In this document: piece after piece, positions 31,659 through 47,423 of the stretch | How the letters are laid out: every line of letters starts with the position of its first letter | Position numbering within the stretch: position 1 is the stretch's first letter | Assembly (NCBI GenBank): GCA_016462905.1 | Contig: JAEMSI010000001.1 | Location: 82,800-146,799, forward strand | DNA: 64,000 nucleotides | Direction of reading: 5' to 3' | DNA from: Polynucleobacter sp. | Lineage (GTDB): Bacteria; Pseudomonadota; Gammaproteobacteria; Burkholderiales; Burkholderiaceae | The notes under the pieces: model-generated | Told to the model about the DNA's origin: nothing | Database searches by the model: none | The model's input: only the letters and a program-made list of their open reading frames with translations | Program-made: the position numbers and the translations under genes

Positions 31659-32540
31659 TTAAATGTGTTTACGCTTTTCCACCATCGTCATAAACTTTTC
31701 ATACTCTTTATCGTCTACGGAGTAACTGTGGTCGTCATCAGGAAAAGTACCGCCTTTCACATCGGCAATGTACTCCTGAATGCCCTTAACGGCAACCTCG
31801 GTCAAATTCGCATAGCGCTTAGTAAATTTGGGCTTAAAGTCTGAAAACACACCTAATAAATCATGGCACAGTAATATTTGACCATCGGTGCCAACCCCAG
31901 CCCCAATCCCAATCGTTGGAATATCCAATTGCTTTGATATCACTGCGGCAATCTTGGCAGGGACAGCCTCAAATTCCAACATAAAACAACCAGCATCCTG
32001 AATTGCAAAAGCATCTTCTAAGATTTTCATCGCGGTATCAGCCGTACGACCCTGTATTCGGAATCCACCGAACATGGCCACCGTATGAGGTGTCAATCCA
32101 ATATGCGAAGCCGTTGGAATGCCAGAACTCACCATCGCTTTTAAAATATGCGCCTGTGATTTTCCGCCTTGAGGTTTGACTGCATCCGATCCCCCTTCTT
32201 GCATAAAACGGGTGGCGTTTTTCAAAGCAATCTCGACGGTGTGATAACTTTGGTAGGGCATGCATCCCAACACAAAGGTGTTCGGTGCCCCGCGACGAAT
32301 TGCCGCAGTATGCATCACCATCATATCCATCGTGGCAGGAATTGTATTGGGGTGCCCATGCGCAATCATCGCCAAGCTATCACCCGCAACCGCCACATCC
32401 ACTCCAGCCGCTTCAGCCCATTTAGCCGAGGTGTAATCGGGCACCGACATGTACACCATTTTTTCGCCTGTCTTTTTCGAATCGTAAATCTCTCCGATAT
32501 TGCGTTTCTTTTTATCTACAGTTGCGGCAGGCTGATTCAT
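31659..32540 (-). CDS. PanB-like enzyme with altered metal site (ketopantoate hydroxymethyltransferase paralogue)
   Basis: 293 residues with clear PanB similarity along its length (VAGDSLAMIAHGHPNTIP, HTAAIRRGAPN, SHIGLTPHTVAMFGGFRIQGR, IPTIGIGAGVGTDGQILLCHDLLG). Against E. coli PanB by eye, Asp45 is kept (Asp54), Lys112 is kept (Lys122) and Glu181 is kept in FEAVP. Metal ligand Asp84 is Cys93 (VLGCMPY) and Glu114 is Gln124 (VKPQGG). Loss of two Mg ligands argues against ordinary ketopantoate synthesis. It is last in a ten-gene cluster with a transporter and a PhyH dioxygenase, so a catabolic aldolase-like role is possible. Confidence 0.85.
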   Translation of the reverse strand: MNQPAATVDKKKRNIGEIYDSKKTGEKMVYMSVPDYTSAKWAEAAGVDVAVAGDSLAMIAHGHPNTIPATMDMMVMHTAAIRRGAPNTFVLGCMPYQSYHTVEIALKNATRFMQEGGSDAVKPQGGKSQAHILKAMVSSGIPTASHIGLTPHTVAMFGGFRIQGRTADTAMKILEDAFAIQDAGCFMLEFEAVPAKIAAVISKQLDIPTIGIGAGVGTDGQILLCHDLLGVFSDFKPKFTKRYANLTEVAVKGIQEYIADVKGGTFPDDDHSYSVDDKEYEKFMTMVEKRKHI

Positions 32541-32559
32541 TGCTTCTCCAGTTTAAAAA

Positions 32560-33423
32560 TTACATGGCTCTCACGCTGGGGTTGGCCAAATTGGCATCGT
32601 AACTATCCACTTTGGTTCCTTTATACAGAATTTTGGCACTTTTCTCGGTAATCGTCTGATGCAACTCAACAAAAGCCGGCTCCATCTCGATCGATGGTTT
32701 CGGTTCGTGAACAAACGTATTGAAGGTATCAACGCCCCTTACCAAGGTGGCCGAATCATCGCCCTCCAATTGGCGCACATAAGTCGGTATATAGCGAATC
32801 GCAAAACCAATTCTGCGTTGATTCGATTGATTCGGTGGCGAGCCATGAACAATCCTGACATGGTGCAAAGACATTTCACCAGGCTCCAGTTCTAATGCCA
32901 CAGCCTTACTTTTATCAATCTCAACGGCCACTTCTTGGCCGCGCGTTAACAGATTGTTTTTGCCAAAGGTATCTTGATGCGGAATTTGATCCATTAAATG
33001 CGTGCCGGGAATCACTTCCATGGCTCCATTGCTGCGATTGCTAGGAGATAAAGCAATCCACGCGGTCACCACATCGGGTGTTGATAAACCCCAATAAGTG
33101 GAATCTTGGTGCCAAGAGACAAAAGCGGGATCATTCGCTTCTTTAATAAAGAAATTGCTGGTCCAACATAAAATATGGTGGCCATATAAATCTTCAATAG
33201 CATCGACAATTTTTTCTTGCCGAACTAGCTCATTAAGCCAAGGAAATAATAAATGCGTCTTATGCCGTTGCGAACCATGCAAAGGCTCACCCTGTTTTTT
33301 TTCAAAAGCTTCTAATTGTTCTCGAATTTCAAGAGCGCTTGCTTCATTTAATACTCGCAAATTCGATAGATAACCATCTCTCTTAAATTGCTCAATTTGG
33401 GATCCACTTAAAAATAAACTCAT
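32560..33423 (-). CDS. Phytanoyl-CoA dioxygenase (PhyH) family protein
   Basis: 287 residues. An Fe(II)/2-oxoglutarate oxygenase of the PhyH family: iron ligands His105 and Asp107 in SWHQDSTYWG, distal His193 in IVHGSPPNQS, and Arg204 in NQRRIGFAIRYIP for 2-oxoglutarate. It would hydroxylate an unactivated carbon of a small carboxylate-like substrate. Its ATG overlaps the livF stop by 4 bp (ATGA), and the PanB-like gene follows after 19 bp, so import and oxidation are probably linked. The substrate is unknown. Confidence 0.9.
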   Translation of the reverse strand: MSLFLSGSQIEQFKRDGYLSNLRVLNEASALEIREQLEAFEKKQGEPLHGSQRHKTHLLFPWLNELVRQEKIVDAIEDLYGHHILCWTSNFFIKEANDPAFVSWHQDSTYWGLSTPDVVTAWIALSPSNRSNGAMEVIPGTHLMDQIPHQDTFGKNNLLTRGQEVAVEIDKSKAVALELEPGEMSLHHVRIVHGSPPNQSNQRRIGFAIRYIPTYVRQLEGDDSATLVRGVDTFNTFVHEPKPSIEMEPAFVELHQTITEKSAKILYKGTKVDSYDANLANPSVRAM

Positions 33424-34121
33424 GCGGCACCTCTCATCGATAAATGGGATTGTTTTTTTGCCTCTTCCACCGAACCAACAAAAACGATTTCACCACGCTC
33501 GATTACATAAACGCGATCAGCATAATCAGGAATATGAAAGGCATTCGATTCGGCCATCAAAATAGCTCTACCCATTTTGCGAATCGACGATAAACCTTCA
33601 TTAATCAAGGGGATAATAGCAGGGGATAAACCCTCAAATGGTTCATCCAAAATGAGTAATTTAGGATCTAAAGTTAAGGCACGGGCAATCGACAGCATTT
33701 TTCGTTCACCACCGGATAAATGATTACCACCGCGTTCGCGATACCCTTCTAGTTTTGGAAAAATACGATAGGCTAAAGCAATCCGCTCTTGATTCGATAA
33801 TTCGGTTTGAATCGTCCAGGTCGACATCTCAATATTTTCAGCAACCGTTAAATCACCAAAAACTTCGCTTTCCTCGGGAGCAAAACCAATTCCTTGACGT
33901 GCGATATCAAATGTTTTTTTACCCAGAATCGATTTGTTATCTAATAGAATATTGCCTGTTTTTGGTTTTAGATAGCCCATCACGCTCTTTAAGGTAGTTG
34001 TTTTACCGGCACCATTTCTGCCTACCAAACACACTAATTCGCCCGCTTTGATTTCAAGGCTAATGGCCCGCAGTATTGGGCTATTTTGAATATCGACCGA
34101 AATCGCCTGAATTTCAAGCAT
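33420..34121 (-). CDS. livF: Branched-chain-type ABC transporter ATP-binding protein LivF
   Basis: The ORF track runs to 34244 through livG in another frame. The true start is the ATG at 34121 (MLEIQAISVDIQNSP), giving 233 residues, the usual LivF length, with an 8-bp overlap with livG. Walker A is GRNGAGKTTTL, the signature LSGGERKML and Walker B LLILDEPFEGL. It energises a HAAT-family importer together with LivG. Confidence 0.93.
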   Translation of the reverse strand: MLEIQAISVDIQNSPILRAISLEIKAGELVCLVGRNGAGKTTTLKSVMGYLKPKTGNILLDNKSILGKKTFDIARQGIGFAPEESEVFGDLTVAENIEMSTWTIQTELSNQERIALAYRIFPKLEGYRERGGNHLSGGERKMLSIARALTLDPKLLILDEPFEGLSPAIIPLINEGLSSIRKMGRAILMAESNAFHIPDYADRVYVIERGEIVFVGSVEEAKKQSHLSMRGAA

Positions 34122-34878
34122 GCTGCACTCGCTTTCCAATAATCTTGGCTTGTAGCTCTTCACTAGCGAAAAATTCCTTGGGCGGTAAATCAGCCAATAA
34201 TTTACCCTCGGCCAAAGCGACGATCCGAGTTGAGTATTCCGCAACTAATTCCATATCGTGCTCAACCAGTAACATCGTCTTAATGCCTGCTAACTTAGCA
34301 GCCGTCATTAAGGTATCCATAATCCCACGCTTATCAGCAGTCGAAATGCCGCTAGTAGGCTCGTCTAATAAAATTACTTGAGGACTTAAAGCAAAAGCAC
34401 TAGCAATATCTAGTAATTTTTTCTCCCCTTGCGAAAGATAAGAAGCCTGCCAGTCCATTTTTTTATCTAAATTAAAGATCTTCGCCACCTCGAAAGCGCG
34501 CTCGACCATCTCGGTTTGACCAGCAGCTTGGGACCAAAAGTTATATTGCGTATTGCGCTGTGAGATCACGGCAGACATGATTGTCTCTTCAACTGTCAAT
34601 TGCGGAAAAATTTGTACCAGCTGAAAAGCCCGCGCCATGCCCAACTGGGCCAATTTGACTGGCCCCACCCCCGCAATCGAATTACCTAAAAAATGAACCT
34701 CGCCAGAAGTAGGCTTTAGTAAGCCGGTTAAAACATTCACAAAGGTAGTTTTACCAGCGCCATTGGGGCCAACGATAGCGACAATTTCATTTTCATAAAA
34801 TGGCAAAGTGACATCTTGTAAAGCTTTAAAAACACCGTAATGCTTTGATACGCTGGTGGCTTCGAGAATCGGTTTCAT
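34114..34878 (-). CDS. livG: Branched-chain-type ABC transporter ATP-binding protein LivG
   Basis: 254 residues. Walker A GPNGAGKTTFVN, signature YLSQGEKKLLDIA (LSQGE rather than the common LSGGE, normal in LivG) and Walker B VILLDEPTSGIS, followed by the H-loop LVEHDMELV. Overlaps livM by 4 bp and livF by 8 bp, so the transporter genes are translationally coupled. Confidence 0.95.
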   Translation of the reverse strand: MKPILEATSVSKHYGVFKALQDVTLPFYENEIVAIVGPNGAGKTTFVNVLTGLLKPTSGEVHFLGNSIAGVGPVKLAQLGMARAFQLVQIFPQLTVEETIMSAVISQRNTQYNFWSQAAGQTEMVERAFEVAKIFNLDKKMDWQASYLSQGEKKLLDIASAFALSPQVILLDEPTSGISTADKRGIMDTLMTAAKLAGIKTMLLVEHDMELVAEYSTRIVALAEGKLLADLPPKEFFASEELQAKIIGKRVQHA

Positions 34879-35840
34879 GATTCAATCTCTCTTTGGGGCA
34901 TTTTTTTCTTACTAAAGATGCCCATAATTCCATTGGGCAATAAAATCACCAGCAAAACTAAAACAACGCCCAAGGCAAAACGCCAATAGGGAGTTAGGGT
35001 CACCAATTGATCTTTTAGTCCAATAAAAACAAAAGCGCCAATAATCGGACCAAAGAAATTATTAAAGCCGCCCAAAATCGTCATAAAAACAATATTTCCA
35101 GATTGCGTCCAATACGCTAGCTCGGGATCTGCTAAGCCGACTGGTACGATCAATAAAGCTCCGCCTACCGCTCCGTAGACAGCCGAGATAACAAATGAAA
35201 TCAAACGGAATTGATGAACTTTAACCCCGAGATACTCGGCCTTACGTGGGTTATCACGAATTGCTTGCAAATGGAGCCCTAAGGGCGAACGCACGATGCG
35301 CCACATTAAATAACCAAAAATCAACATGACCACCAAGGAATAATAAAAAAAAGGGCCAATTAAAAAAGCAGTCTTATCTAATTCACTTAAATCCTGGCCT
35401 AGTAAATTAGGGCGTACAACCTTAATGCCGGAATCGCCACCCGATAAATCATAAAACTTGAACAAGATGGAATGAAACAACATTCCAAAAGCTAGGGTTA
35501 GCATGCCAAAGAAAATACGTACATAACGAACGCATAAAATACCAATCGGGATCGAAATCAATAAGCTCACGCCAATCGAAGCCAGAATATTGAGTTCCAT
35601 ACTTTTAATACCCAAGCGGCTGGTGAGAATGGCTACCGTATAAGCCCCTAAAGCAATATAAAGCGCATGACCAAAGGATAGTAAGCCGGTATACCCAAAG
35701 AGCAAATTAAAACCCAACAAAATCACGCTTGAGGCAATCGCAGGTAATAATAAAATCACATAATACGGTGGTAGAAAAAAAGGAGCGGCACACAAAACAA
35801 GCAATGCACCCAAAACAATTAGTTGTGTACGGAAATTCAT
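34875..35840 (-). CDS. livM: Branched-chain-type ABC transporter permease LivM
   Basis: 321 residues with about 8-10 hydrophobic segments. The LivM signature region is seen in LLFGYTGLLSFGHALYIALGAYT and in the cytoplasmic loop ICVRYVRIFFGMLTLAFGMLF; GLHLQAIRDNPRKAEYLGV is the coupling (EAA-like) loop contacting the ATPases. It overlaps livH by 4 bp and livG by 4 bp. Confidence 0.94.
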   Translation of the reverse strand: MNFRTQLIVLGALLVLCAAPFFLPPYYVILLLPAIASSVILLGFNLLFGYTGLLSFGHALYIALGAYTVAILTSRLGIKSMELNILASIGVSLLISIPIGILCVRYVRIFFGMLTLAFGMLFHSILFKFYDLSGGDSGIKVVRPNLLGQDLSELDKTAFLIGPFFYYSLVVMLIFGYLMWRIVRSPLGLHLQAIRDNPRKAEYLGVKVHQFRLISFVISAVYGAVGGALLIVPVGLADPELAYWTQSGNIVFMTILGGFNNFFGPIIGAFVFIGLKDQLVTLTPYWRFALGVVLVLLVILLPNGIMGIFSKKKMPQREIES

Positions 35841-36718
35841 TCGGCTGCCTTTCCGTATAAACCATTTGGTTTAAAAATTAATACTGAAATCACGATTAAA
35901 TAAATTAATAATAATTCGAGCTCAGCATAAAAATGGATCGTAAAGGCGCGCATTAATCCGACTACGAGAGCCCCCACTAGGGCTCCGCGCATACTGCCCA
36001 AACCGCCAATCACCACCACCGCAAAGGCTTCGACTACCACCTCTGAAATCATTTCTAATGAAGCGGCTGAGGTAGGTACCACCAAAGCACCTCCGATGGT
36101 TCCTAAAATAGCACCCAGCGTGAAAATAATTACGTTAATCCAAACGACATTGACTCCTAGCGCCTCACTCATGCGGCGATTTTCAGCAGTGGCACGAACA
36201 ATCCGCCCAAAATTGGTTTTTTGTAGCATCCAACCCATGCCAAGTGCCAAAACAAGGCTCGAAAAAATGACTAGTACTTTATATACGGGCAGAGAAACTG
36301 CCCCTAGGCTCACTTGCCCATAAACCATCGATAAATTACCTAGGGTCATGGGAGTTGCCCCCCAAATCATGCGTATTAAATCTTCTAATAACAACATCAC
36401 TGCAAAGGTTAGCAGTAGCTGAAAACCCTCTTCTCGGTCATACACTAAACGCAATAAGCGCTCAATCGCAATCCCCACTAAACCAATCCCAATTCCTGAG
36501 CCTAATAAAATCAAAATTAAAAAGTAAGAAGGGATGCCATATTTAATTGCTACCCCTACCATCGTGATGCCAAAATAAGCACCGAGCGCATAAAAAGCGC
36601 CGCACGCTAAATTAACAATTTTTTGCACGCCAAAAACTAATTGCAATCCTCCTGCAATTAGAAATAAAACTGCGGCATGAAAAATACCGCTTAAAAATAG
36701 ATCAATATAGGCTGTCAT
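35837..36718 (-). CDS. livH: Branched-chain-type ABC transporter permease LivH
   Basis: 293 residues, about 8 membrane segments. LivH motifs: GGLQLVFGVQKIVNLACGAFYALGAYFG and FGRIVRATAENRRMSEALGVNV (coupling loop), then GGLGSMRGALVGALVVGLMRAF. It lies downstream of livK past a terminator-like hairpin, so its expression is probably lower than that of the binding protein. Confidence 0.94.
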   Translation of the reverse strand: MTAYIDLFLSGIFHAAVLFLIAGGLQLVFGVQKIVNLACGAFYALGAYFGITMVGVAIKYGIPSYFLILILLGSGIGIGLVGIAIERLLRLVYDREEGFQLLLTFAVMLLLEDLIRMIWGATPMTLGNLSMVYGQVSLGAVSLPVYKVLVIFSSLVLALGMGWMLQKTNFGRIVRATAENRRMSEALGVNVVWINVIIFTLGAILGTIGGALVVPTSAASLEMISEVVVEAFAVVVIGGLGSMRGALVGALVVGLMRAFTIHFYAELELLLIYLIVISVLIFKPNGLYGKAAE

Positions 36719-36720
36719 AA

Positions 36721-36758
36721 CTTAAAAAAGAAAACCGAAGCGCATTACACGCTTCGGT
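36721..36758 (-). terminator. Attenuator-like terminator between livK and livH
   Basis: On the minus strand ACCGAAGCG, a 7-nt loop and CGCTTCGGT form a perfect 9-bp stem (36734-36758), followed by a U-rich tail TTTCTTTTTT. It begins 10 nt after the livK stop. It would end most livK transcripts while letting some read through into livHMGF, a usual way to make excess binding protein. Confidence 0.85.
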
Positions 36759-36768
36759 GGTTACCTGA

Positions 36769-38064
36769 TTAAAGGGTAATTTTGGCGGTCTCCAACCACT
36801 GCCAAAAATCCATTCCAGGTGGTTTTTGTAATTCACTGCTGAATTTCTTGTCCACAGGGTTGGAAGTAACAAAGTCATATTTATTTTTATGCGTCGTTAA
36901 ACCCTGATAGAAAGTCTGTTCGGCAATATGATCTTTGCGCATTTTTCCTGGTCCGCCTAAAGACTCAACCTCAATACCCTCGATTGCAGCTGCAATCTCC
37001 TCCGTTTTCGGCCAAGATCCACCCTTGGCTTTCTGAGCTTTTTCAGCGCCAGCCTTAAATACTTGCATTGCAAAATAGGCGCGATCAGCTTCCCAGTTCG
37101 GATAATCTTTGTACTTGTCAAAGTAATGCTGAACAAACTCTTTCTGCAAAGGTGATGCATTCGGATAATTAAAATCAAGCGTATTTGATCCAAACACGAT
37201 ACCCTCAGGCGTAAACTCTTTTTTCAATAAAGTTTGTTGGAACCCAGCTGCTGGCATTACAAACTTGGTATCTTTAGTTAAGCCAGCTGCATGAGCGTTT
37301 TGCATAAATACTGGTAAATCCGCAAATAGCAGTGAGGAAAAAATCAAATCAGGCTTTGCGGCTTTTAGTGAGGCAATATGACTTGATAAATCCATCGTAC
37401 CAACCTTAGGCCATTGCTCAGCAACTACCTTCACTTCAATACCAAAGCGCTTCAACAAAGCTTGGAAAGCAGCCCAGTTATTTCGACCGTATGAATAATC
37501 GGGGTTAATACCAGCGATCGTGGCAAACTTCCCTTTGTAATATTTAATCGCTAGTAACGATGCCATCACGGCTTCGCACTCATTATCGGTTGAGCGGAAT
37601 AAATATTTTGGATTAGGAATCGTTTCTTTAACACCGTCCTGAGAGGTACCATCCCAATAAATCGTTAAGGCCTTCATCTCCTCAACAGTCGGACTCATTG
37701 CCAACGAAACCCCTGAAGATACTAAGCCCTGCACACAGTCGACCTTATCTTGCAGAACCAATTTACGGAAACGTTCGGTGGTATCTTTGGCATTCGTTTC
37801 TTCTTCGATCACTAATTCCACTTTACGACCACCAATACCGCCTGCTTTGTTAATCCTTTCTACTGCAAATTGAGTGCCTCGTAAACCACAGACACCAATC
37901 GTACCGGCAATCCCCGCCTGCGGCGCAAGAATGCCAACTTTTAAAGGCGTATTTTGTGCAATCGCAGGAAATCCCCAGCCACCACCAGCCGCCAAAACCG
38001 AAGCGGCGCCAATTCCTTTAATTACGGTACGGCGATTTTCATTTTGAATCTGCTTCTTCTTCAT
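36769..38064 (-). CDS. livK: Branched-chain-type ABC transporter substrate-binding protein LivK
   Basis: 431 residues, a type I periplasmic-binding fold (LKVGILAPQAGIAGTIGVCGLRGTQFAVERINKAGGIGGRKVELVIEEETNA). The N-terminus ENRRTVIKGIGAASVLAAGGG, ending PAIAQ, is a twin-arginine-like signal, so Tat export is likely. The ligand cannot be read from sequence; relatives bind amino acids, amides, urea, aromatic acids or short carboxylates. Cluster partners (PhyH, PanB-like) suggest a carboxylate rather than leucine. Confidence 0.9.
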   Translation of the reverse strand: MKKKQIQNENRRTVIKGIGAASVLAAGGGWGFPAIAQNTPLKVGILAPQAGIAGTIGVCGLRGTQFAVERINKAGGIGGRKVELVIEEETNAKDTTERFRKLVLQDKVDCVQGLVSSGVSLAMSPTVEEMKALTIYWDGTSQDGVKETIPNPKYLFRSTDNECEAVMASLLAIKYYKGKFATIAGINPDYSYGRNNWAAFQALLKRFGIEVKVVAEQWPKVGTMDLSSHIASLKAAKPDLIFSSLLFADLPVFMQNAHAAGLTKDTKFVMPAAGFQQTLLKKEFTPEGIVFGSNTLDFNYPNASPLQKEFVQHYFDKYKDYPNWEADRAYFAMQVFKAGAEKAQKAKGGSWPKTEEIAAAIEGIEVESLGGPGKMRKDHIAEQTFYQGLTTHKNKYDFVTSNPVDKKFSSELQKPPGMDFWQWLETAKITL

Positions 38065-38124
38065 GTTGTCTCCTCTTATTAAAGTTGAATCAATTCTTAC
38101 GGCGTCTTACTACAATACTCCAGC

Positions 38125-38814
38125 TTAATTCTCAGCAAAGAAAGTGTTTCGAGTGCACTCTTCGATGTAATCCAACAACTTATCTAATGCAATTCCCGCC
38201 TGTTTTTCTTTTCCTTGAGCAATCTCCTCAGCTAATATCGCATGCAAGTTAGCCGATTCGACTAAATCAGTATGTTGCTGCAGATGCCCAAACCAAAAAC
38301 GACGTGACATCCCATGCAGAGAAGACATAGCTGCTGCGGCAAATTCATTGCGAGCCGCAATCACTGTAAAGTCATTAAGTTCTTTATCAATCTTTAAAAA
38401 TAAAGTGTTATTTTTGTCGCGCGCTGCCCGCCGAAACTCCTTAGCTAAACGCTCAAATTCTTTTTTATCTTCGGCATTGGCCCGTTTAGCTGCTTTTTTG
38501 CAAATTAAACGCTCTAACTCTCGCCGCGTTTCTAAAACACGTAATTGTTTTTGAGCATTGACATCGGTAATAAAAACTCCCCGTTTTGGCAGAATGGTAA
38601 CCAAATGCTCGCGGCTCAAGCGTTGTAAGGCTTCACGAATCGGGGTTCGACCAATATCTAAAAGAGCAGAGAGCTGGCTTTCGGAGATGGGCGTACCTGG
38701 GGCCAATTGGTTTGTCACAATCAGTTCCTCAATCTGACGATAGGCCAAATCGGATAACGACTGATCTTCTGGATTAATTACTAAGGCTAAATTCGTGAAT
38801 CGTCGAGAGGCCAT
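38125..38814 (-). CDS. GntR-family regulator, FCD subfamily
   Basis: 229 residues. N-terminal winged helix (QIEELIVTNQLAPGTPISESQLSALLDIGRTPIREALQRLSREHLVTILPKRGVFI) and a helical FCD domain (ETRRELERLICKKAAKRANAEDKKEFERLAKEFRRAARDKNNTLFLKIDKELNDF). It sits inside the ten-gene cluster between the ABM-like gene and livK. It most likely controls the cluster through the 16-bp palindrome upstream of the first gene. Confidence 0.92.
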   Translation of the reverse strand: MASRRFTNLALVINPEDQSLSDLAYRQIEELIVTNQLAPGTPISESQLSALLDIGRTPIREALQRLSREHLVTILPKRGVFITDVNAQKQLRVLETRRELERLICKKAAKRANAEDKKEFERLAKEFRRAARDKNNTLFLKIDKELNDFTVIAARNEFAAAAMSSLHGMSRRFWFGHLQQHTDLVESANLHAILAEEIAQGKEKQAGIALDKLLDYIEECTRNTFFAEN

Positions 38815-38829
38815 CTGAATAAAAAGCCC

Positions 38830-39420
38830 TTAAGCAAACTGTTGCGGAGCTTCGGCTCGATCAAACATGCCGTAATCACGGCATACCTCAAACCAACGTA
38901 AATCAATCTCTGCGCCGAGTTGCGAAGCCTTCAATGGCATCGCCTCAGCACCCTGTTCAATACTTAAATCACACAAGGCAATACCTCTTTGGGGATTAAT
39001 AATGCCTTTAAATAAACGCGGCTGGCGTAACTGCATATCAGCTTGTTTCACTAATGCGTTAATTTTTTCAAAATCACCGACCAAAACAGCAAGGCCTTCA
39101 CGAGCCCGATTCGGTGGAGCAAAGTCATCGGCTGTTTTCTCTTCACCCACCCGTAAGCGATAATCCTCCAATACTAAATTACGACCGCAAACCTGAGCAC
39201 CATTGTGATCGTATTGGCAACGCCATTGTTTTAAGGAGTCTTCATTTTTCCATTGAGAGAAAGATAAATACCAATCGGATTTCTGTAAATTAGCAAAACG
39301 CTCCACCGAAATAAAACCGGGATTTTGCTCAACAATCGGTCTCAAGCCAACCGCCATGGCAAAGTAAGCGTCGACAAAGTTTGGCTTGGGTAATACATCA
39401 AAGAAGACTGCTTGGGTCAT
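38830..39420 (-). CDS. ABM-like (antibiotic biosynthesis monooxygenase fold) protein
   Basis: 196 residues, no signal peptide. The N-terminal half (FVDAYFAMAVGLRPIVEQNPGFISVERFANLQKSDWYLSFSQWKNEDSLKQWR) matches the small alpha+beta-barrel ABM/YgiN-type domain, often a cofactor-less oxygenase or heme-degrading fold. The C-terminal half is a second, weaker repeat-like region ending in YGMFDRAEAPQQFA. It lies 15 bp upstream of the GntR gene. The function in the cluster is unknown. Confidence 0.7.
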   Translation of the reverse strand: MTQAVFFDVLPKPNFVDAYFAMAVGLRPIVEQNPGFISVERFANLQKSDWYLSFSQWKNEDSLKQWRCQYDHNGAQVCGRNLVLEDYRLRVGEEKTADDFAPPNRAREGLAVLVGDFEKINALVKQADMQLRQPRLFKGIINPQRGIALCDLSIEQGAEAMPLKASQLGAEIDLRWFEVCRDYGMFDRAEAPQQFA

Positions 39421-39443
39421 CGTTGCCTGTCGTTTGGATGATA

Positions 39444-40283
39444 TTAGCTAGCTAAAACTCTATTTTCTTCGGGGGATAAAATCGGCCCCTCTAAAGTCAC
39501 TTTCTCTTCCTGAACTCGACCATCTTTAAATTTATCAATGATGGGCTTAAGTTTTGGGTCAATATGCTGATCATTAAAGCCATTCAATAAAGTACCAATC
39601 AAACCGCGCTTCAAATCGGATGTGCCCATGATCCAATCGGCAATTGGAAAGGTCAAATTCATATTTTTATGCATCATGATTCCCATATTGTGATGGGCCG
39701 CATGATGACGACGAATGGTATTGATAAAAGGCATATGACGAACAAACCAGTTTTCTTTAATGTGACAGCAATAATGAAAGGTTTCGTAAACAATGTAATG
39801 GCCAACCATCGTCATATACACAATGTAGCCTACATTGGGATTAAATAGTTTCGCAGCAATATAACCCAAGATGCTTCCAGCGACCCCTAAAACAATCAAT
39901 ACTCGCCATGGGAAAAAAACGATTCGATGTTCCTTAACGGTATCAATCGTGTAATCAGTATCGGTAAAATATTGGTGATGTTGGCGAGTATGCCGATCAT
40001 AAATTGCGCGCAAAGCAAATACATCGACTAGACGATGCATGACAAAACGATGCATTCCCCACTCCACAAAATTACCAGCAATCGCCACTGGAATAATCGT
40101 CAACCATGCCCACGTTGGCTGATCCAACTGCGAATAGCAATAATAGATCGCTGTAATGCCTGCGATATACATCACGCCAATATGAAATAGTCCGTTATAA
40201 AAAGGGCTAACTTGATTGATGTAGGCTGCGCGAAATTTTTTCTGCCGCTCGGTCATCATCATCGGCTTTGAAAAACTGCTCAT
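39444..40283 (-). CDS. Membrane di-iron hydroxylase/desaturase family protein
   Basis: 279 residues with about four membrane segments and the histidine boxes of the fatty-acid hydroxylase superfamily: HRFVMH, HTRQHHQYF, HYCCH and RRHHAAHHN. Members oxidise lipids, sterols or carotenoids with a di-iron centre at the inner membrane. It is the first gene of the ten-gene cluster, behind a 16-bp palindrome. Substrate unknown; it differs strongly from the second family member at 54.3 kb. Confidence 0.88.
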   Translation of the reverse strand: MSSFSKPMMMTERQKKFRAAYINQVSPFYNGLFHIGVMYIAGITAIYYCYSQLDQPTWAWLTIIPVAIAGNFVEWGMHRFVMHRLVDVFALRAIYDRHTRQHHQYFTDTDYTIDTVKEHRIVFFPWRVLIVLGVAGSILGYIAAKLFNPNVGYIVYMTMVGHYIVYETFHYCCHIKENWFVRHMPFINTIRRHHAAHHNMGIMMHKNMNLTFPIADWIMGTSDLKRGLIGTLLNGFNDQHIDPKLKPIIDKFKDGRVQEEKVTLEGPILSPEENRVLAS

Positions 40284-40329: not shown

Positions 40330-40345
40330 ATCTAATATATTAGAT
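40330..40345. promoter_or_regulatory. 16-bp perfect palindrome upstream of the ten-gene cluster
   Basis: ATCTAATATATTAGAT lies 47 bp upstream of the membrane hydroxylase ATG, in the 104-bp gap after mdcH. Its size and symmetry suit a GntR/FCD dimer, and such a regulator is encoded two genes downstream. I see no second copy upstream of livK or the Bug/mdc operon. Confidence 0.65.
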
Positions 40346-40387: not shown

Positions 40388-41320
40388 CTAGAATTTAGAG
40401 AGGGTTGTACCAATCCAAGAAACAACACCCTGAATCGTTCTAAAGTCTGCAACCGAGCGGATTGCAACTTGCGGATGCGCCACGTTAAACATTTTGGTAA
40501 GGGCATTACCAGGCCCCAACTCAAGTACTACTCTAACACCACGATCCACCAAGGTTTGCATGCAGGCTTGCCAATCAATCGGTTCGCCAATCGCTCTAGC
40601 CAAAAGATGAAGACCGCTAGCAGTATCCGTTGAAATTGATCCAGAAAGACAGCTCAGTACAGGTATAAATGGTTTCGGTAAGAAAGTGGCTTGCTCCAAA
40701 TACTCCCTAAACTTCAATTGAGCTTGCCGCATTAGTGGCGTATGCGATGGTACGCTGACATCTAGCAGTTTTGTCCAAATCGAACTGCTTTCACAATATT
40801 GTTGAAGGATCCGTAAATCGTGTTTTAAACCGCCAATCACAAAATGATCAGGCTCGTTCACAATTGCGATATATGCTCGCGATTCCCCAAGCAACTGCTT
40901 AATTTGTAATTGGCAGGCCTCTTGACCAAGCCCGCGAATAGCAAGCATGCCCGCCTGTTGCGGTTGATATTGCTCCATCAAGGAACAGCGCGCATAGGTC
41001 ATTGCAACAAGCTGCTCTATCGTTAGTGCACCAGAACAACCCCAAGCCGATAGCTCACCCACGCTGTAACCTGCTACAAATTCAGGGGTGGGTAAATGCG
41101 GACTTAAAAGCGTCCAATTAGCAACTGCTGAAGCAACTGCCAAGGGCTGGGCAATCGCATTACGCGTTAGATTTTCCTCACTTGCTATCAGAGAAAGAAA
41201 ATTAATCTTAAACGTACTGGAGAATGAGTCAATAATCGCTCGGCCTTGATTTTCACTAGCGCTCTTTTCTAAGATAGCGCGATCGATATTTCCCTGACCC
41301 GAAGCAATCACAGCAAACAC
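40388..41320 (-). CDS. mdcH: Malonate decarboxylase epsilon subunit (malonyl-CoA:ACP transacylase)
   Basis: 310 residues, an FabD-like acyltransferase with the nucleophile elbow AGYSVGELSA and ARCSLMEQYQPQQAGMLAIRG. It first loads malonyl onto the acyl-carrier subunit to prime the enzyme. The start is GTG, immediately after the mdcB stop codon. Last gene of the mdc operon. Confidence 0.9.
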   Translation of the reverse strand: MFAVIASGQGNIDRAILEKSASENQGRAIIDSFSSTFKINFLSLIASEENLTRNAIAQPLAVASAVANWTLLSPHLPTPEFVAGYSVGELSAWGCSGALTIEQLVAMTYARCSLMEQYQPQQAGMLAIRGLGQEACQLQIKQLLGESRAYIAIVNEPDHFVIGGLKHDLRILQQYCESSSIWTKLLDVSVPSHTPLMRQAQLKFREYLEQATFLPKPFIPVLSCLSGSISTDTASGLHLLARAIGEPIDWQACMQTLVDRGVRVVLELGPGNALTKMFNVAHPQVAIRSVADFRTIQGVVSWIGTTLSKF

Positions 41321-42205
41321 TTAAATCTCCTTCGTTTCAATTTGATCAATCAACAAACAAGCACCTAAAAGATCGGCGCAACCACCGGGACTTAAATTCA
41401 TTGCAATAAATTGCTGATGTATTTTCTGGGTTTGCAAAAACCAAGAATCTTGAAACACACCACCTTGGTCGATGAATTGTTGCGCAGCTTGTTGGGCAAA
41501 ATTTAAGCCCGAAAGACCACCACGATATAGTAAATTAGTATCGTCAATCTGAGCCAGCAGGGCATAAAAGGCCTGAATTCGCGCTAATGAGGAATTATTA
41601 GTAAATTGATAAGTTATACGATAAGCAGGCAAAGCAATCGTGTACACCGACGAAAAGCCACTGATAGCCTGGGCTCTTGCTCCACCAGCATCATGATATT
41701 CCTTACGCACCAGTGAACCATGGCTATGGACTAAATCACGATGCTCTCGGAGGTCAGCGCCCCACTGTTGCTGAATAATTTCACCTAGGGTGAACTGACG
41801 TAATTGATGTGTAAGGCGATAGGCAGCAGCTGCCGCTAATAAACCCAAAATAAAAATCGCGCCGCGATGTGTGTTAACGCCCTTCGTAACCAACATCATA
41901 TGTTGCTCGGCAGCCATTCCAAGTTCTTTTAGGGCTCCAAATGGCTCTTGATTCATACCGGCATGAGCCATCCGTAAAAAATAGTTACGTAAACTAAATA
42001 GGCTACGGAACATTAAGTCAGCATTCATATCGCGATGACTACCACAGTCTTCTTTGCTGACTAAACCTGCCTTAGGAAATGTAATTAATTCTTCCCATAA
42101 AGCTCGAATGCAGGCTCTTTGAATAAAAAGACAAGTTTTACGAGATGATTGCTCAACGATGACGTCATCATGCAAAATCAGATCGTCCATTAATGCGCTC
42201 TCCAA
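41321..42205 (-). CDS. mdcB: Triphosphoribosyl-dephospho-CoA synthase
   Basis: 294 residues, CitG/MdcB family. Makes the 2'-(5''-triphosphoribosyl)-3'-dephospho-CoA precursor of the ACP prosthetic group. Family features: LVSKEDCGSHRDMNADLMFRSLFSLRNYF, GVNTHRGAIFILGLLAAAAA and a C-terminal GLSGLNFAQQAA, then SPGGCADLLGACLL. Overlaps mdcG by 16 bp. Confidence 0.92.
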   Translation of the reverse strand: MESALMDDLILHDDVIVEQSSRKTCLFIQRACIRALWEELITFPKAGLVSKEDCGSHRDMNADLMFRSLFSLRNYFLRMAHAGMNQEPFGALKELGMAAEQHMMLVTKGVNTHRGAIFILGLLAAAAAYRLTHQLRQFTLGEIIQQQWGADLREHRDLVHSHGSLVRKEYHDAGGARAQAISGFSSVYTIALPAYRITYQFTNNSSLARIQAFYALLAQIDDTNLLYRGGLSGLNFAQQAAQQFIDQGGVFQDSWFLQTQKIHQQFIAMNLSPGGCADLLGACLLIDQIETKEI

Positions 42206-42849
42206 AGGTCAGTTTTCGAAATTAGCAGCGGCTCAAAATCTGATTTCAACAATAAGTAATCGCTAGCGCTAAGCCACTCTTTCCAAGCTACCGATTGACC
42301 ATGATCTAATTCGATTTCGCCATCTAACTTAGAAAATAAAAGCCTGTCCAATTTCATCAAATCGGCAATCAATAGTTGCGCCTGCGCTAGCTTCCCAAGC
42401 TTAAACAGTAAATCAATATCCGACTCAGGACTCATTAAAACTTTTTTTTGAGCGAGGCTCCAAAAGGCAGAACCATAAACCTGCACTGCTATTTGATGCC
42501 GCTTAGCAATCACCAAGACTTGTTCACAAAGGCTTTGCAAATGGTTTGGAATAAAAGGCTGTGCTTCGCTTAATAATGCGGGTTCATCAACCCGCAAAAT
42601 CAAATCGCGCGGAATATAAAAAGCGAGGCGTAATTTATATCCATCAGGCCCAAAATACATCAGACCTAATGGCGCAAAATGATTTCGCAATGCTTTTTCA
42701 TCGGCGCGCCATGCCCTGCCTACGAAAGGTCTTTCAGATAATATCCAATTCTCTAAATAAGATTGTTCCAACTGATTTAAGCTTTGTAAAGAAACCAGTT
42801 GGTCCAAAGCATTTTTTTTGAGAATAACTCTGCGGTGGCGCCAAGTCAT
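42190..42849 (-). CDS. mdcG: Malonate decarboxylase holo-ACP synthase (phosphoribosyl-dephospho-CoA transferase)
   Basis: 219 residues. Nucleotidyltransferase-like: VYGSAFWSLAQKKVLMSPESDIDLLFKLG holds the G-S and D-x-D motifs that bind metal and nucleotide. It attaches the CoA-derived group to the serine of MdcC. The N-terminal region RPFVGRAWRADEKALRNHFAPLGL is typical of MdcG. It follows mdcE by 9 bp. Confidence 0.9.
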   Translation of the reverse strand: MTWRHRRVILKKNALDQLVSLQSLNQLEQSYLENWILSERPFVGRAWRADEKALRNHFAPLGLMYFGPDGYKLRLAFYIPRDLILRVDEPALLSEAQPFIPNHLQSLCEQVLVIAKRHQIAVQVYGSAFWSLAQKKVLMSPESDIDLLFKLGKLAQAQLLIADLMKLDRLLFSKLDGEIELDHGQSVAWKEWLSASDYLLLKSDFEPLLISKTDLWRAH

Positions 42850-42858
42850 AAAACTAGA

Positions 42859-43563
42859 CTACTTGGCTTTTTTAATAGTGCGGATCACAAAATCGGCCTT
42901 TGTACGACCCCCTAACTGAGAGCCTCGTTCTGCTCGCCTATCCTCTGTCTGCGGATGATTTAAAGCTAACTCAAGTGAGTTTGCTAAATTTTTTTCCCAG
43001 ACCCCGTCGAGCGCTCCCATAGATAAATAATTGGCCACCCCTGGTCCAAAAATTGGCGATGATTTACAAAGCTCTTCTAATTGATCAAGTGGAATTAATG
43101 TGATCCTCGACATCGCAGGCAAAGCCATCACCCGAATCTGAGCATGACTCAAGGCATACGATTGATCGGCCATCATACCCAAGGCAAGATATCCGCCACT
43201 AACGGCTTCGTTATAGACTAAACTAATAATCGGGTGGCCTTGGATTCGAGCTAATTCAAAACATTTTGATAAGTGCGCTAAGTAACCAGCATTGCCTAAC
43301 AATTCATCCCGTCGCGAGAGTAGCTGACCTTGAGTATCAACTAACACTAAAATCGCTTGCTGAGGGGATTTTTTAATAATTTCTAAAAGTTTGCCAGCTA
43401 AAGCAAAAGCTAGATCCACACCAATTGGAGCTGAATTACGTGTTCCCAAGATAGAAACGGTTTGATTGGCACAAACACCCTCCCCGTAAATCATCTCTCC
43501 AGCATTTTCCAGATGAAAACCTGCAGGAAAAAGCTCTGCGCAAATTATTTGAGCATCAGCCAT
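42859..43563 (-). CDS. mdcE: Malonate decarboxylase gamma subunit
   Basis: 234 residues, carboxyltransferase (crotonase-like) fold: DLAFALAGKLLEIIKKSPQQAILVLVDTQGQLLSRRDELLGNAGYLAHLSKCFELAR and VYNEAVSGGYLALGMMADQSYAL. With MdcD it decarboxylates malonyl-S-ACP to acetyl-S-ACP. The ATG overlaps the mdcD stop by 8 bp. Confidence 0.92.
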   Translation of the reverse strand: MADAQIICAELFPAGFHLENAGEMIYGEGVCANQTVSILGTRNSAPIGVDLAFALAGKLLEIIKKSPQQAILVLVDTQGQLLSRRDELLGNAGYLAHLSKCFELARIQGHPIISLVYNEAVSGGYLALGMMADQSYALSHAQIRVMALPAMSRITLIPLDQLEELCKSSPIFGPGVANYLSMGALDGVWEKNLANSLELALNHPQTEDRRAERGSQLGGRTKADFVIRTIKKAK

Positions 43564-44467
43564 GGGTTCGTACCCGATTAGCGATTGACATAAACTCGGA
43601 ATAATCTAGACTAGATATTTTTTCAGGCTCAGTAATTCCTAAGATCTTCCAGATATCAAAAGCCTCTGTGCATGTTCCAAATTGATTTAAGCGCTGACCA
43701 AGCTCGCGATGCTCGGCTTCCAATTGATCTAAATTGATTGGAATTGGATGATTTAGTAAGGAAATTAAATGGTCACGAATCGACATAAAGGAATCTTCTG
43801 CAAAGGATTGGGCTTCGTTGATCAAATAGCGATGCTTGCCACCCATGGTTCGCCACACTAGGGCTCGATCGCGGGCGTCAAATTCTTCTACCCCTTTTTG
43901 AGCCTCAATAACCTCGGGACCCGAAACAGAAAGTCGACCTTCCTCGGTAATCAAAACATAATCACAACAGCGCGCGACGATACTGATGCCGCCATAAATA
44001 CCATTTGAACCAGCAGAGACTGCGATCACAGTAACGCCAGAATTCCTAGCTTTAAAAAGTGCTCGTTGGATTTCAGAAATCGCGATCAAACCAGCATTTG
44101 CCTCATGCAAACGCACTCCACCGGTATCTAAAATTAAAATCACGGCACTTGGCTTTTCATCGGATGCTAATTCCAACAAACCGGTGAACTTAGCCCCATG
44201 CACCTCGCCTACAGAACCGCCCATAAATCCGGGTTCTTGAGCGGCACACAATACTTTCTTACCAGCCAGCAAGCCACGACCCACCACCATGCCATCATCA
44301 AAAGCGACCGGTAAATTTAATTGCTTTAAGTGAGGGCTAATTACACGCTCAGATGGAGGTAAGAACTCAATAAAACTATTGGGATCTAATAAATGCGCCA
44401 CCCGAACACGAGCTCGTGCCTCATAAAAACTATCGTGTCGAATTGAGTTCATCCTGATTTGCTCCAT
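43556..44467 (-). CDS. mdcD: Malonate decarboxylase beta subunit
   Basis: 303 residues, the partner carboxyltransferase: AKFTGLLELASDEKPSAVILILDTGGVRLHEANAGLIAISEIQRALF and SVSGPEVIEAQKGVEEFDARDRALVWRTMGGKHRYLI. The ATG at 44467 overlaps mdcC by 19 bp. Met6 (MNSIRHDSF, 44452) is an alternative start still inside the overlap. Confidence 0.94.
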   Translation of the reverse strand: MEQIRMNSIRHDSFYEARARVRVAHLLDPNSFIEFLPPSERVISPHLKQLNLPVAFDDGMVVGRGLLAGKKVLCAAQEPGFMGGSVGEVHGAKFTGLLELASDEKPSAVILILDTGGVRLHEANAGLIAISEIQRALFKARNSGVTVIAVSAGSNGIYGGISIVARCCDYVLITEEGRLSVSGPEVIEAQKGVEEFDARDRALVWRTMGGKHRYLINEAQSFAEDSFMSIRDHLISLLNHPIPINLDQLEAEHRELGQRLNQFGTCTEAFDIWKILGITEPEKISSLDYSEFMSIANRVRTHG

Positions 44468-44769
44468 TCGCTTGCCGCTTGAGCAAGTCGCAAAGAAACT
44501 ACCGCTGGAGTTGCGCCGCCATCGTTAATGGTCATCACGGTATTGCCAAACTGATTTAACTCAGCAAAATCAGATAAAACAGCAACCCAAGTGCTAGCGA
44601 AGCCCCGCACCGAAGTCTCCACATAAATCTGTATTTTTCCAGTCAGATCGGCCCACTCAACCAATATTTCTAGATTACCCGATCCAACAACACCCACTAA
44701 AACTGGGGGTTTTTTCGAGTCCAGAAGCGACTTGGGCCATGGGCCGAAGGTATATTGCAAACTTTCCAT
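44449..44769 (-). CDS. mdcC: Malonate decarboxylase acyl-carrier protein (delta subunit)
   Basis: 106 residues. Serine 30 in VGVVGSGNLEIL is the expected attachment site of the phosphoribosyl-dephospho-CoA group. The conserved RGFASTWVAVLSDF and INDGGATPAVVSLRLAQA follow. It carries acetyl/malonyl thioesters between the subunits. It lies 3 bp after the mdcA stop codon. Confidence 0.94.
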   Translation of the reverse strand: MESLQYTFGPWPKSLLDSKKPPVLVGVVGSGNLEILVEWADLTGKIQIYVETSVRGFASTWVAVLSDFAELNQFGNTVMTINDGGATPAVVSLRLAQAASEWSKSG

Positions 44770-44772
44770 GAT

Positions 44773-46413
44773 TTACCAATTCCTAAAACGTTTAGGGGGA
44801 TCATAAAGCCCTCCTGACCAACGTACTAAATCTTTAATTGAGCGAGCTGCTAATAAATTACGATTCGCATCGCGGGGATCAATTCCTAAATCAGCCGGTC
44901 CCTGCACAATTCCACGTGCGCGCAAGGATTCAACCATTTTTTTATTTCGTTTTAAACCCACCGGCGTGTAGCCCGCAACACCACGAATCGCCTGCTCACG
45001 TTCCTCGATATTTTGACAGCGGTGCAAGTGGGCAATACCTTCCTCAGTCACCAAGTGAGTTAAATCATCGCCATAAACCATCACTGGCGGCAAACTCAAC
45101 TGAAAGTCTTCCATCAATTGCCAAGCATCTAAGCGCTCGACAAAGGTAGCTTGCATTTTTTCGCGAAAAGTTTCCACCGTCTGTACCACTAATTTCCTAC
45201 CACGTGGCATGGTAGAACCAGATAAAGAAACGCTTTCAGCCCCCGCTTTTAACCAAGCTTTACTGGCATGGCGACGGGCTCGTGAATCAGAACCAAAGTT
45301 AGGCGCCCCGCCAAAACCAGTGATTCGGTTTAAAGTCGCGGTTGAAGAATTGCCCTCGATATCCATTTGCAGAGTTGAGCCAATAAATAAATCTGAATAA
45401 TGCCCCGCTAACTGACAAAAGGCTCGATTTGATCGCATCGAACCATCACTACCAGTAAAGAAAATATCGGGTCGCGCAGAAATATAATTCTCCATTCCTA
45501 ACTCAGATCCAGCGCTATGAATATTCTTAATAAATCCAGACTCAATCGCTGGAATTAAGGTGGGACAAGGATTGACACTCATGTATTGGCAAATTTTATT
45601 TTTTAGGCCCAAAGACTCTGCATAGGTTGGCAAAATTAATTCAATCGCCGCCGTATCAAATCCGATACCATGATTCAAACGATTAATTTCATACGGTAAA
45701 TAGATGCCTTTAATCACCATCATCGCCATCAAAATTTGAACTTCCGTAATTAAGGCAGGATCGCGCGTAAAAATCGGCTCGATATGGTGCTGTTTGGGAG
45801 ACTTCACCACAAATGAAACCCAATCACTGGGAACATCAATGCGCGGAAGCACATCGACCATTTCGTTGACCTGCGCAATCACAATGCCATTTTTAAAGGC
45901 AGTAGCCTCAACAATTGGCGGAGTATCTTCGGTATTCGGTCCAGTATATAAATTACCCTCTCGATCGGCGCTTTGTGCTGCAATAAAGGAAACGCGTGGA
46001 GTTAAATCGACAAAATAACGGCTATACAACTCAAGGTAAGTATGAATTGCCCCCACCTGAACAATATTTTCCTTAATCAATTTACCGAGTCGCACACCCT
46101 GATCGCCGGAATAACAAAAATCTAATTTACGAGCAATCCCCTTTTCAAAAATATCGAGATGCGATGGCAGTGCTATATTGGACTGAACAATATGTAAATC
46201 ATGAATTTTTTCTGGGTTTACTTGAGCTAAACATTGCGATAAAAAGTCAGCGTGTTTTTGATTATTTCCTTCAATACAAACTCGATCATAGGGCTCTAGA
46301 ATGAATTCAAGTAGTCGCACCATGTCATTCGTTTGAACCTGCTTGCCCAAGGTAATCGCCTTGGCGCGTTCCAAACGCTTAGCCAAATTAAGGGCTAATG
46401 AATTCCATGTCAT
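44773..46413 (-). CDS. mdcA: Malonate decarboxylase alpha subunit (acetyl-S-ACP:malonate ACP transferase)
   Basis: 546 residues, CoA-transferase-like. It exchanges malonate for acetate on the ACP. Conserved segments: GNNQKHADFLSQCLAQVNPEKIHDLHIVQSNIALPSHLDIFEKGIA, RVSFIAAQSADREGNLYTGPNTEDTPPIVEATAFKNGIVIAQVNE and ITGFGGAPNFGSDSRARRHAS. First enzyme gene of the operon, 29 bp after the Bug receptor gene. Confidence 0.96.
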   Translation of the reverse strand: MTWNSLALNLAKRLERAKAITLGKQVQTNDMVRLLEFILEPYDRVCIEGNNQKHADFLSQCLAQVNPEKIHDLHIVQSNIALPSHLDIFEKGIARKLDFCYSGDQGVRLGKLIKENIVQVGAIHTYLELYSRYFVDLTPRVSFIAAQSADREGNLYTGPNTEDTPPIVEATAFKNGIVIAQVNEMVDVLPRIDVPSDWVSFVVKSPKQHHIEPIFTRDPALITEVQILMAMMVIKGIYLPYEINRLNHGIGFDTAAIELILPTYAESLGLKNKICQYMSVNPCPTLIPAIESGFIKNIHSAGSELGMENYISARPDIFFTGSDGSMRSNRAFCQLAGHYSDLFIGSTLQMDIEGNSSTATLNRITGFGGAPNFGSDSRARRHASKAWLKAGAESVSLSGSTMPRGRKLVVQTVETFREKMQATFVERLDAWQLMEDFQLSLPPVMVYGDDLTHLVTEEGIAHLHRCQNIEEREQAIRGVAGYTPVGLKRNKKMVESLRARGIVQGPADLGIDPRDANRNLLAARSIKDLVRWSGGLYDPPKRFRNW

Positions 46414-46442: not shown

Positions 46443-47423
46443 TTAGCTATCAAGAGTAATTTTCGAATCCTTAATCACTGTGCCCCATTTTTTTAAGTCG
46501 GCCTGAATTAGACTTAGTAATTCACTGGGGGTTCTAGGTTCAATTTCATCATTGCCCAATTTTTCTAACTCTTTGGCGACCGCAGGATCAGAAACAACTT
46601 GTTTGAGTTCGCTTTGCAGTCTTGATGCAATTGGGGACGGCAACTTGGCGGGGCCCACCATCATGAAACGTAAGACCGCTTCATACCCTTTGACCCCCTG
46701 CTCGGCTATGGTGGGAACATTGGGCAAGGCGCTTGATCTCGCAGTGGTAGTAACACCCAAGGCCTTTGCCTTGCCTGCGGCAATCATTGGCAACGCAGGT
46801 CCAATAGTGGCAAACATGATCGGAATTTGACCGCCAACTAAATCAACTAGTGCTGGGCCTGCTCCCCGGTAAGGAATATGAACTACAAAAGTACCTGTTC
46901 TGGCTTTAAATAATTCACCGGCAAGGTGGTGAACTGATCCTACGCCTGAGCTAGCATAACTATATTGGCCAGGCTTCGATTTTAAAAGGGCTACCAATTC
47001 AGGAATGTTTTTTGCATTGACGCTAGGGTTGACCAACAGCACTAATCCAGTCGAGCAAACATACGAAAGCGGTGTGAAATCAGTCAGGGGATCGTAAGAT
47101 ACCTTTCTTAAATTAGGCATGATACAAAGTGGTCCAGTATCGGTTAAGCCGATGGTGTATCCATCTGGATTACTTCTCGCAACAAATTCTGCACCAACCG
47201 ATGCGCCTGCACCCGGTTTGTAATCAACCACCACAGACTGCTTTAGTTTTTGTTCAAGCGGACGATTCAGAATTCGAGCGGTTGCATCCGATGCCCCGCC
47301 CGTTGTATAGCCCAAAACTAATTTAATTGGTCGATCTGGCCAAGTTTGTGCTCGCAGCACAGGAGCGAACAATGCGGCTAATAAACCGCCTATCAACTTT
47401 AAAGTATTTCTCTTTTTCATCAT
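46443..47423 (-). CDS. Bug/TctC-family tripartite tricarboxylate transporter receptor
   Basis: 326 residues. Signal peptide ending APVLRAQ, then the hallmark start WPDRPIKLVLGYTTGGASDATARIL and later YSYASSGVGSVHHLAGELF, PYRGAGPALVDLVGGQIPIMF. It binds a carboxylate in the periplasm. Placed directly ahead of mdcA, it probably binds malonate or a related dicarboxylate. No TctA/TctB membrane partners are in the window. Confidence 0.92.
   Translation of the reverse strand: MMKKRNTLKLIGGLLAALFAPVLRAQTWPDRPIKLVLGYTTGGASDATARILNRPLEQKLKQSVVVDYKPGAGASVGAEFVARSNPDGYTIGLTDTGPLCIMPNLRKVSYDPLTDFTPLSYVCSTGLVLLVNPSVNAKNIPELVALLKSKPGQYSYASSGVGSVHHLAGELFKARTGTFVVHIPYRGAGPALVDLVGGQIPIMFATIGPALPMIAAGKAKALGVTTTARSSALPNVPTIAEQGVKGYEAVLRFMMVGPAKLPSPIASRLQSELKQVVSDPAVAKELEKLGNDEIEPRTPSELLSLIQADLKKWGTVIKDSKITLDS

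Follow-up and report, generated by a model that had tools for sequence, protein, structure and literature searches.

A GntR-associated gene block with a PanB-like enzyme in Polynucleobacter and its candidate role in the use of a small hydroxy or oxo acid

In a stretch of 64,000 nucleotides from Polynucleobacter sp. (assembly GCA_016462905.1, contig JAEMSI010000001.1; the whole stretch is called the window here), ten consecutive minus-strand genes at 31659-40283 code for a membrane protein of the di-iron hydroxylase type (Fah), an ABM-like protein, a GntR/FCD regulator, a LivKHMGF importer, a PhyH dioxygenase and an enzyme related to PanB. The question is whether these genes belong together and, if they do, which compound is taken up and oxidised. 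The original prediction, made from the letters alone, had suggested a branched or methyl-bearing carboxylate that is hydroxylated and cleaved with release of a one-carbon (C1) unit, by a pathway of which no description was known; the ten genes are present with the coordinates, strand and order that it gave, and the literature searched indeed held no described counterpart of this gene set. As similar blocks of many proteobacteria share parts of the cluster together with a DNA control site, an undescribed pathway seems a better explanation than a chance neighbourhood. The preferred reading, to which we give a probability of roughly 0.4 and which is thus tentative, is a mobile, GntR-controlled catabolic module for a methyl-bearing 2-hydroxy or 2-oxo monocarboxylate that would be hydroxylated and then cleaved.

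Gene linkage and a common palindrome

Related loci were taken from 80 named PhyH loci, from PanB searches in two samples of 399 genomes, and from a fah search in 399 genomes, with the genes in the loci picked by a codon-based choice; L109 and L167 are one contig with two identifiers, so that any count with both of them exceeds the true number by one. Of 43 fah loci, 32 have GntR, 24 encode a PhyH enzyme of one or the other type, and 14 have PanB-A, the clade of the window's PanB-like enzyme. A Liv importer is found in nine of them, a TRAP (tripartite ATP-independent periplasmic) transporter in 12 and both in none; judged from this distribution, Liv and TRAP replace each other in related loci, and the stable core across the 43 loci is fah, gntR, an importer of either type and a PhyH enzyme. 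The linkage of the genes is beyond chance: among 399 genomes of the order PanB-A is present in seven, and no fewer than six of these belong to the 29 genomes with a close fah (binomial, ~1e-6).

The same gene order, tctC-mdcACDEGBH-fah-abm-gntR-livKHMGF-phyH (mdc, malonate decarboxylase), is found in Polynucleobacter 71A-WALBACH (L264 and L035), where the block has other flanks and ends in an alcohol dehydrogenase gene instead of PanB, the only PanB of that genome being a 33% match. In a member of another Burkholderiales family (G543, L165), livH-livK-mdc-tctC-gntR-panB-A share a strand, with fah divergent next to them. Within its own genus the module is rare: among the Polynucleobacter genomes listed, the PhyH orthologue occurs in the genome studied and in G254 alone. 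Conservation of the PhyH/PanB-like pair beside the Liv set, on which the original prediction depended, was found in part, as phyH, panB-A and Liv are together in the window, L036 and L038 only, but Liv and phyH are without a panB in view in L035, L043-L045, L047 and L057, and panB-A and Liv are without phyH in L166.

The upstream regions of the related loci have the palindrome CTRATATATYAG in common. With at most one mismatch it is found 59 times (16 times exactly) in 1.82 Mb, compared with 0-3 times in first-order Markov sequences, a count that is partly circular because the motif was discovered in the same loci; nearly all matches are upstream of fah, phyH, livK, panB-A, gntR or dctP. Two checks escape this circularity: a Tistlia panB-A locus from outside the discovery set has the palindrome before fah and also before panB-A, and exact matches are few genome-wide, nine across 12 genomes, of which six lie at the module. 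A pattern search in the own genome gave one exact match before fah, at 40332, and the other within a gene. The operator was found neither before tctC and mdc in the window nor at the mdc promoter of four separate mdc loci, and no MdcY-type site ATTGTATACAAT was found in the block. The block has one exact site, and therefore fah-abm-gntR-livKHMGF-phyH-panB can be regarded as the regulated unit and mdc as a linked neighbour; in G543, mdc is downstream of the panB operator site. The GntR protein is the candidate for reading the palindrome. Exact CTGATATATCAG also separates a different GntR/FCD gene from a LivK-type gene that is accompanied by an aldehyde dehydrogenase (L289, G1054:C33:93202), and there the site may serve a paralogous regulon; a further exact operator match is inside the tctC gene of Polynucleobacter IMCC 30228 (L283).

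Enzymes, importers and clues to the substrate

The PanB-like protein scores above the panB equivalog cut-off (TIGR00222, 287 versus 207.6), and its AlphaFold model (pLDDT 85) has the PanB fold, with the best Foldseek matches all being PanB. Despite this score it carries, in E. coli numbering, the exchanges D84C, E114Q and V179E, and D84 and E114 are metal-site acids of PanB, as in the 1m3u structure. D84 is replaced by Cys in all PanB-A and by Ala or Ser in the sister clade PanB-B, and in both clades E114 is Gln and V179 is Glu without exceptions, while all other PanBs compared keep D84 and E114 and none has an acid at 179. PanB-A (13 sequences) and PanB-B (6) form one branch of the tree (support 100/98), and PanB-B occurs beside PhyH in other genomes. 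The location of Glu179 is predicted from the strand pattern alone. The nearest solved relative, E. coli PanB (1m3u), has in common with the enzyme the fold as well as D45, S46, K112, H136 and E181, but the gene sits in a catabolic block, unlike that of a housekeeping PanB, an identity that is excluded by the residue exchanges and by a separate canonical PanB in the same genome (C49, L001). The protein derives from PanB, but with two metal-site acids exchanged throughout the clade its chemistry is not readable from the family name; the chemistry that had been predicted from that name is broadly plausible but finds no support in the active site. PanB paralogues with canonical metal residues stand beside a GcvT-type gene in L003 (G000:C71:30756-31529, own genome; also near an ABC ATPase and a TSUP-like permease) and in L171 (near an OYE-like gene), which suggests a possible part for relatives of PanB in further C1 pathways.

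In PhyH, the iron triad (H105, D107, H193) and the 2-oxoglutarate (2OG) arginine R204 are invariant in 83 sequences. Because HxD...H is intact, PhyH is of the hydroxylase type and not a halogenase; a SyrB2-type halogenase was ruled out by the invariant triad Asp and by a TIGR01762 score of 80 bits versus a cut-off of 226. The Fe(II)/2OG motif is common to the PhyH family (phytanoyl-CoA dioxygenase, ectoine hydroxylase; nearest solved chain 6zyk), but the window PhyH belongs to an orthologue group separate from the known dioxygenases. The gene directly after phyH is an alcohol dehydrogenase in 14 loci, PanB-B in seven (on six distinct contigs) and, in the window, PanB-A, in agreement with the tie to PanB-like enzymes that had been expected, and in a single locus (L056) a phosphoenolpyruvate (PEP)-mutase-family gene takes the PanB place after livF-phyH. 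Several Polynucleobacter and Burkholderiaceae loci (L034-L042) have a cysteine-dioxygenase-like cupin gene beside phyH, which in six of them is preceded by a sodium:solute symporter, and in Polynucleobacter IMCC 30228 a second-type PhyH gene is followed by tctC (L283, G254:C9).

Fah of the window has no Pfam match itself, but 16 of 26 orthologues match PF04116 (FA_hydroxylase; best 1.4e-9), and the clusters HxxxxH, HxxxHH and HHxxHH, an eight-His pattern, are invariant in 26 sequences, by which the predicted assignment to the di-iron membrane hydroxylase type (FA_hydroxylase superfamily) is confirmed. Relatives of the ABM-like protein are present in 7 loci only, and its assignment from the domain match is weak, whereas the GntR, Liv, PhyH and PanB-like family assignments are firm.

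The LivKHMGF set is complete like that of Liv/HAAT branched-chain importers, for which TRAP substitutes in relatives of the block. A Glu near residue 226 is the amino-group ligand in leucine-specific LivK/LivJ; in the alignment to 4n0q an alanine of the window's LivK takes its place, and PAAG is found in 11 of 11 orthologues. A plain leucine importer is unlikely, since this ligand Glu is absent. The nearest solved relatives of the substituting TRAP binding proteins are 2hzk, 2zzv (lactate) and 7ug8 (ketoacid), which bind keto acids or lactate. They belong to importers of the TakP/TTHA0766 type for 2-oxo and 2-hydroxy acids, which are absent from the window, and a carboxylate substrate would fit because the nearest solved relatives of the substitutes bind such acids. 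The reference list of PMC5812351 includes a calcium-lactate TRAP structure. In Caballeronia and Cupriavidus, a gene resembling flavin mononucleotide (FMN)-dependent lactate dehydrogenase is beside phyH, and C1 genes (corrinoid and methyl-tetrahydrofolate transferases, formate dehydrogenase) are near panB-A in L065, L106, L169 and L170. Taken together, the TRAP relatives, the FMN-lactate-dehydrogenase-like gene, the C1 genes and the loss of the LivK Glu speak for a small hydroxy or oxo acid that bears a methyl group and releases a C1 unit, though no single one of them is proof.

Extent and insertion of the block

From panB to fah, the intergenic gaps are 19, -4, -8, -4, -4, 50, 60, 15 and 23 bp, and the predicted coupling of the phyH start to the livF stop by an ATGA overlap is present; livF starts with the ATG at 34121, a longer TTG open reading frame to 34244 being unlikely by the coding model. 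An 11-bp stem with a T-run immediately after livK (36758-36734) resembles a terminator, and because of the position of this hairpin it is doubtful that all ten genes are on one mRNA; the hairpin suggests uneven expression inside the unit. Rfam matches were absent from 28-50 kb of the window.

The original cluster was right in its ten genes but ended too early, as mdcHBGEDCA and tctC continue on the same strand 104 bp beyond fah and reach 47423. With mdcA, C, D, E, B, G and H the mdc operon is complete, and all these genes are shared with malonate decarboxylase operons, unlike which the block has no dedicated malonate carrier, has tctC as an orphan and is joined to the ten genes. The ten genes, the mdc set and tctC account for exactly 15.8 kb between prlC and xth, two genes that are directly adjacent in four related genomes (L234, L238, L241, L242), and from this gene order they are one inserted block. 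In L233, L237, L239 and L240, an RND-type efflux set is found between prlC and xth; the site is an insertion hot spot, because other relatives have different DNA there. The GC content of the block (0.43-0.46) is close to that of the flanks (0.45-0.46), and therefore a recent foreign origin is not readable from it. A decayed fah fragment is right before mdcA in Herminiimonas (L262:7581-7985), in a genome with an intact fah elsewhere, and the window has a second, unrelated FA_hydroxylase gene (PF04116) at 54296-55246, the position of which is conserved in relatives.

Table 1. Coordinates of the ten genes, the candidate control elements and the adjoining mdc and tctC genes in the window
Feature	Coordinates	Strand	Evidence
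PanB-like enzyme, clade PanB-A	31659..32540	-	PF02548 312 bits; residue table; tree; AlphaFold2 fold = PanB
PhyH Fe(II)/2OG dioxygenase	32560..33423	-	PF05721 99 bits; HxD...H intact
LivF-like ATPase	33420..34121	-	ABC_tran; ATG start by coding model
LivG-like ATPase	34114..34878	-	ABC_tran
LivM-like permease	34875..35840	-	PF02653 (BPD_transp_2)
LivH-like permease	35837..36718	-	PF02653 (BPD_transp_2)
Terminator-like hairpin after livK	36734..36758	-	11-bp stem, T-rich tail
LivK-like binding protein	36769..38064	-	PF13458 (Peripla_BP_6) 200 bits; alignment to 4n0q
GntR/FCD regulator, candidate reader of CTRATATATYAG	38125..38814	-	PF00392, PF07729
ABM-like protein	38830..39420	-	PF03992 27.8 bits, cut-off 23.1
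Fah, FA-hydroxylase-type di-iron membrane protein, first of the ten genes	39444..40283	-	invariant His clusters; PF04116 in orthologues
Operator candidate ATCTAATATATTAGAT, perfect 16-bp palindrome containing CTAATATATTAG (40332-40343)	40330..40345	.	
mdcH-type malonyltransferase	40388..41320	-	PF00698
mdcB-type (CitG family)	41321..42205	-	PF01874
mdcG	42190..42849	-	PF10620
mdcE (malonate decarboxylase gamma)	42859..43563	-	TIGR03134 219.6 bits, just under cut-off 237
mdcD (malonate decarboxylase beta)	43556..44467	-	TIGR03133, above cut-off
mdcC acyl carrier (delta)	44449..44769	-	PF06857
mdcA (malonate decarboxylase alpha)	44773..46413	-	TIGR01110 898 bits, above cut-off
tctC, orphan TTT-type binding protein	46443..47423	-	PF03401

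The proposed route and its alternatives

In the proposed catabolic module, the GntR protein would leave the palindrome before fah when the substrate is present, LivKHMGF would import the small organic acid, and PhyH would use O2 and 2-oxoglutarate to hydroxylate it. The PanB-like enzyme, without the D84 and E114 acids but with the new Glu179, might then cut the C-C bond beside the new hydroxyl and free a one-carbon or short fragment, possibly onto tetrahydrofolate. In loci without PanB a dehydrogenase would carry the alcohol onward, and in Polynucleobacter the malonate decarboxylase may use up a malonate end product. The original view of importer and oxidation enzymes as one functional unit is retained in this, and so is C1 metabolism, which was found nearby in relatives, but not the PanB-based chemistry. 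A more specific aerobic route, in which PhyH hydroxylation of a methyl-bearing carboxylate is followed by hydroxymethyl transfer run backwards by the PanB homologue with its rebuilt metal site, the C1 unit passing to tetrahydrofolate, is unlikely; if it is true, the altered PanB clade would represent a new class of enzyme, found repeatedly in Proteobacteria and governed by a common operator.

Several points weigh against the catabolic module as proposed. With D84 and E114 gone, the PanB-like protein may perform no PanB-type chemistry, and the likeness to lactate and keto-acid binders is nearest-relative evidence that concerns the TRAP substitutes and not LivK. Malonate need not be the product, because six of the 10 panB-A genomes have no mdcA and a seventh has it only at a remote place, and because the operator is lacking before tctC and mdc. 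The usual substrates of FA_hydroxylase proteins are membrane lipids, a poor fit for a small-acid pathway, and 22 of the 43 fah loci have neither Liv nor TRAP in view; Fah is the most constant gene beside GntR, and its role is the largest gap in the proposed mechanism. That Fah and ABM act on a lipid or on some component of the cell surface, with only the mobile island and the regulator in common with the uptake genes, would agree with this general lipid activity and with the importer-free loci, but the same operator and the repeated linkage of fah to importer and PhyH make it most improbable.

What becomes of the methyl group could differ from the proposed C-C cleavage. PhyH might hydroxylate an O-, N- or S-methyl group, so that formaldehyde leaves without any cut in the carbon chain of the substrate and is captured or oxidised with tetrahydrofolate by the PanB-like protein or the alcohol dehydrogenase. 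Such an oxidative demethylation would agree with the genes for a CmuA-like corrinoid methyltransferase, a methyl-tetrahydrofolate:corrinoid transferase, a corrinoid activase and formate dehydrogenase in related loci, with the other PanB paralogue that adjoins a GcvT-type gene (L003), and with the alcohol dehydrogenase beside phyH, which scores highest with formaldehyde-type families, though all its matches are under the cut-offs; the block in the window has none of the corrinoid and formate genes, the relatives of the importers indicate hydroxy or oxo acids, and demethylation is rather unlikely. The PanB-like protein may also have lost tetrahydrofolate and metal chemistry and act on the hydroxylated acid simply as a lyase of the PEP mutase/isocitrate lyase superfamily, as the fixed loss of D84/E114 with the new E179 and the PEP-mutase-family gene of L056 would allow. 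However, that replacement is known at one locus, sequence and fold are overall nearest to true PanB, and a plain lyase is very unlikely. The mdc genes could instead be the core of the system, with GntR as an MdcY-type malonate sensor and the ten genes as feeders, for example by PhyH converting methylmalonate to hydroxymethylmalonate, from which the PanB-like enzyme strips the hydroxymethyl group to give malonate. In two Polynucleobacter mdc, tctC and the ten genes are indeed in one block, in G543 they are interleaved, and the fah remnant of L262 is next to mdcA, but with mdcA absent from most panB-A genomes, mdc located at another place than the module in Polynucleobacter IMCC 30228, and mdc promoters without the operator, a malonate unit is distinctly unlikely.

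The proposed catabolic module would define an undescribed catabolic regulon with its gene list, an operator of 12 bp, two importers that can stand in for each other and a PanB subclade with jointly changed metal-site residues. To name such genes panB is a hazard, as they score above the equivalog cut-off despite the loss of two metal-site acids. Solving the pathway would name a carbon source of freshwater bacteria and show how an enzyme of vitamin biosynthesis has been turned to catabolism.

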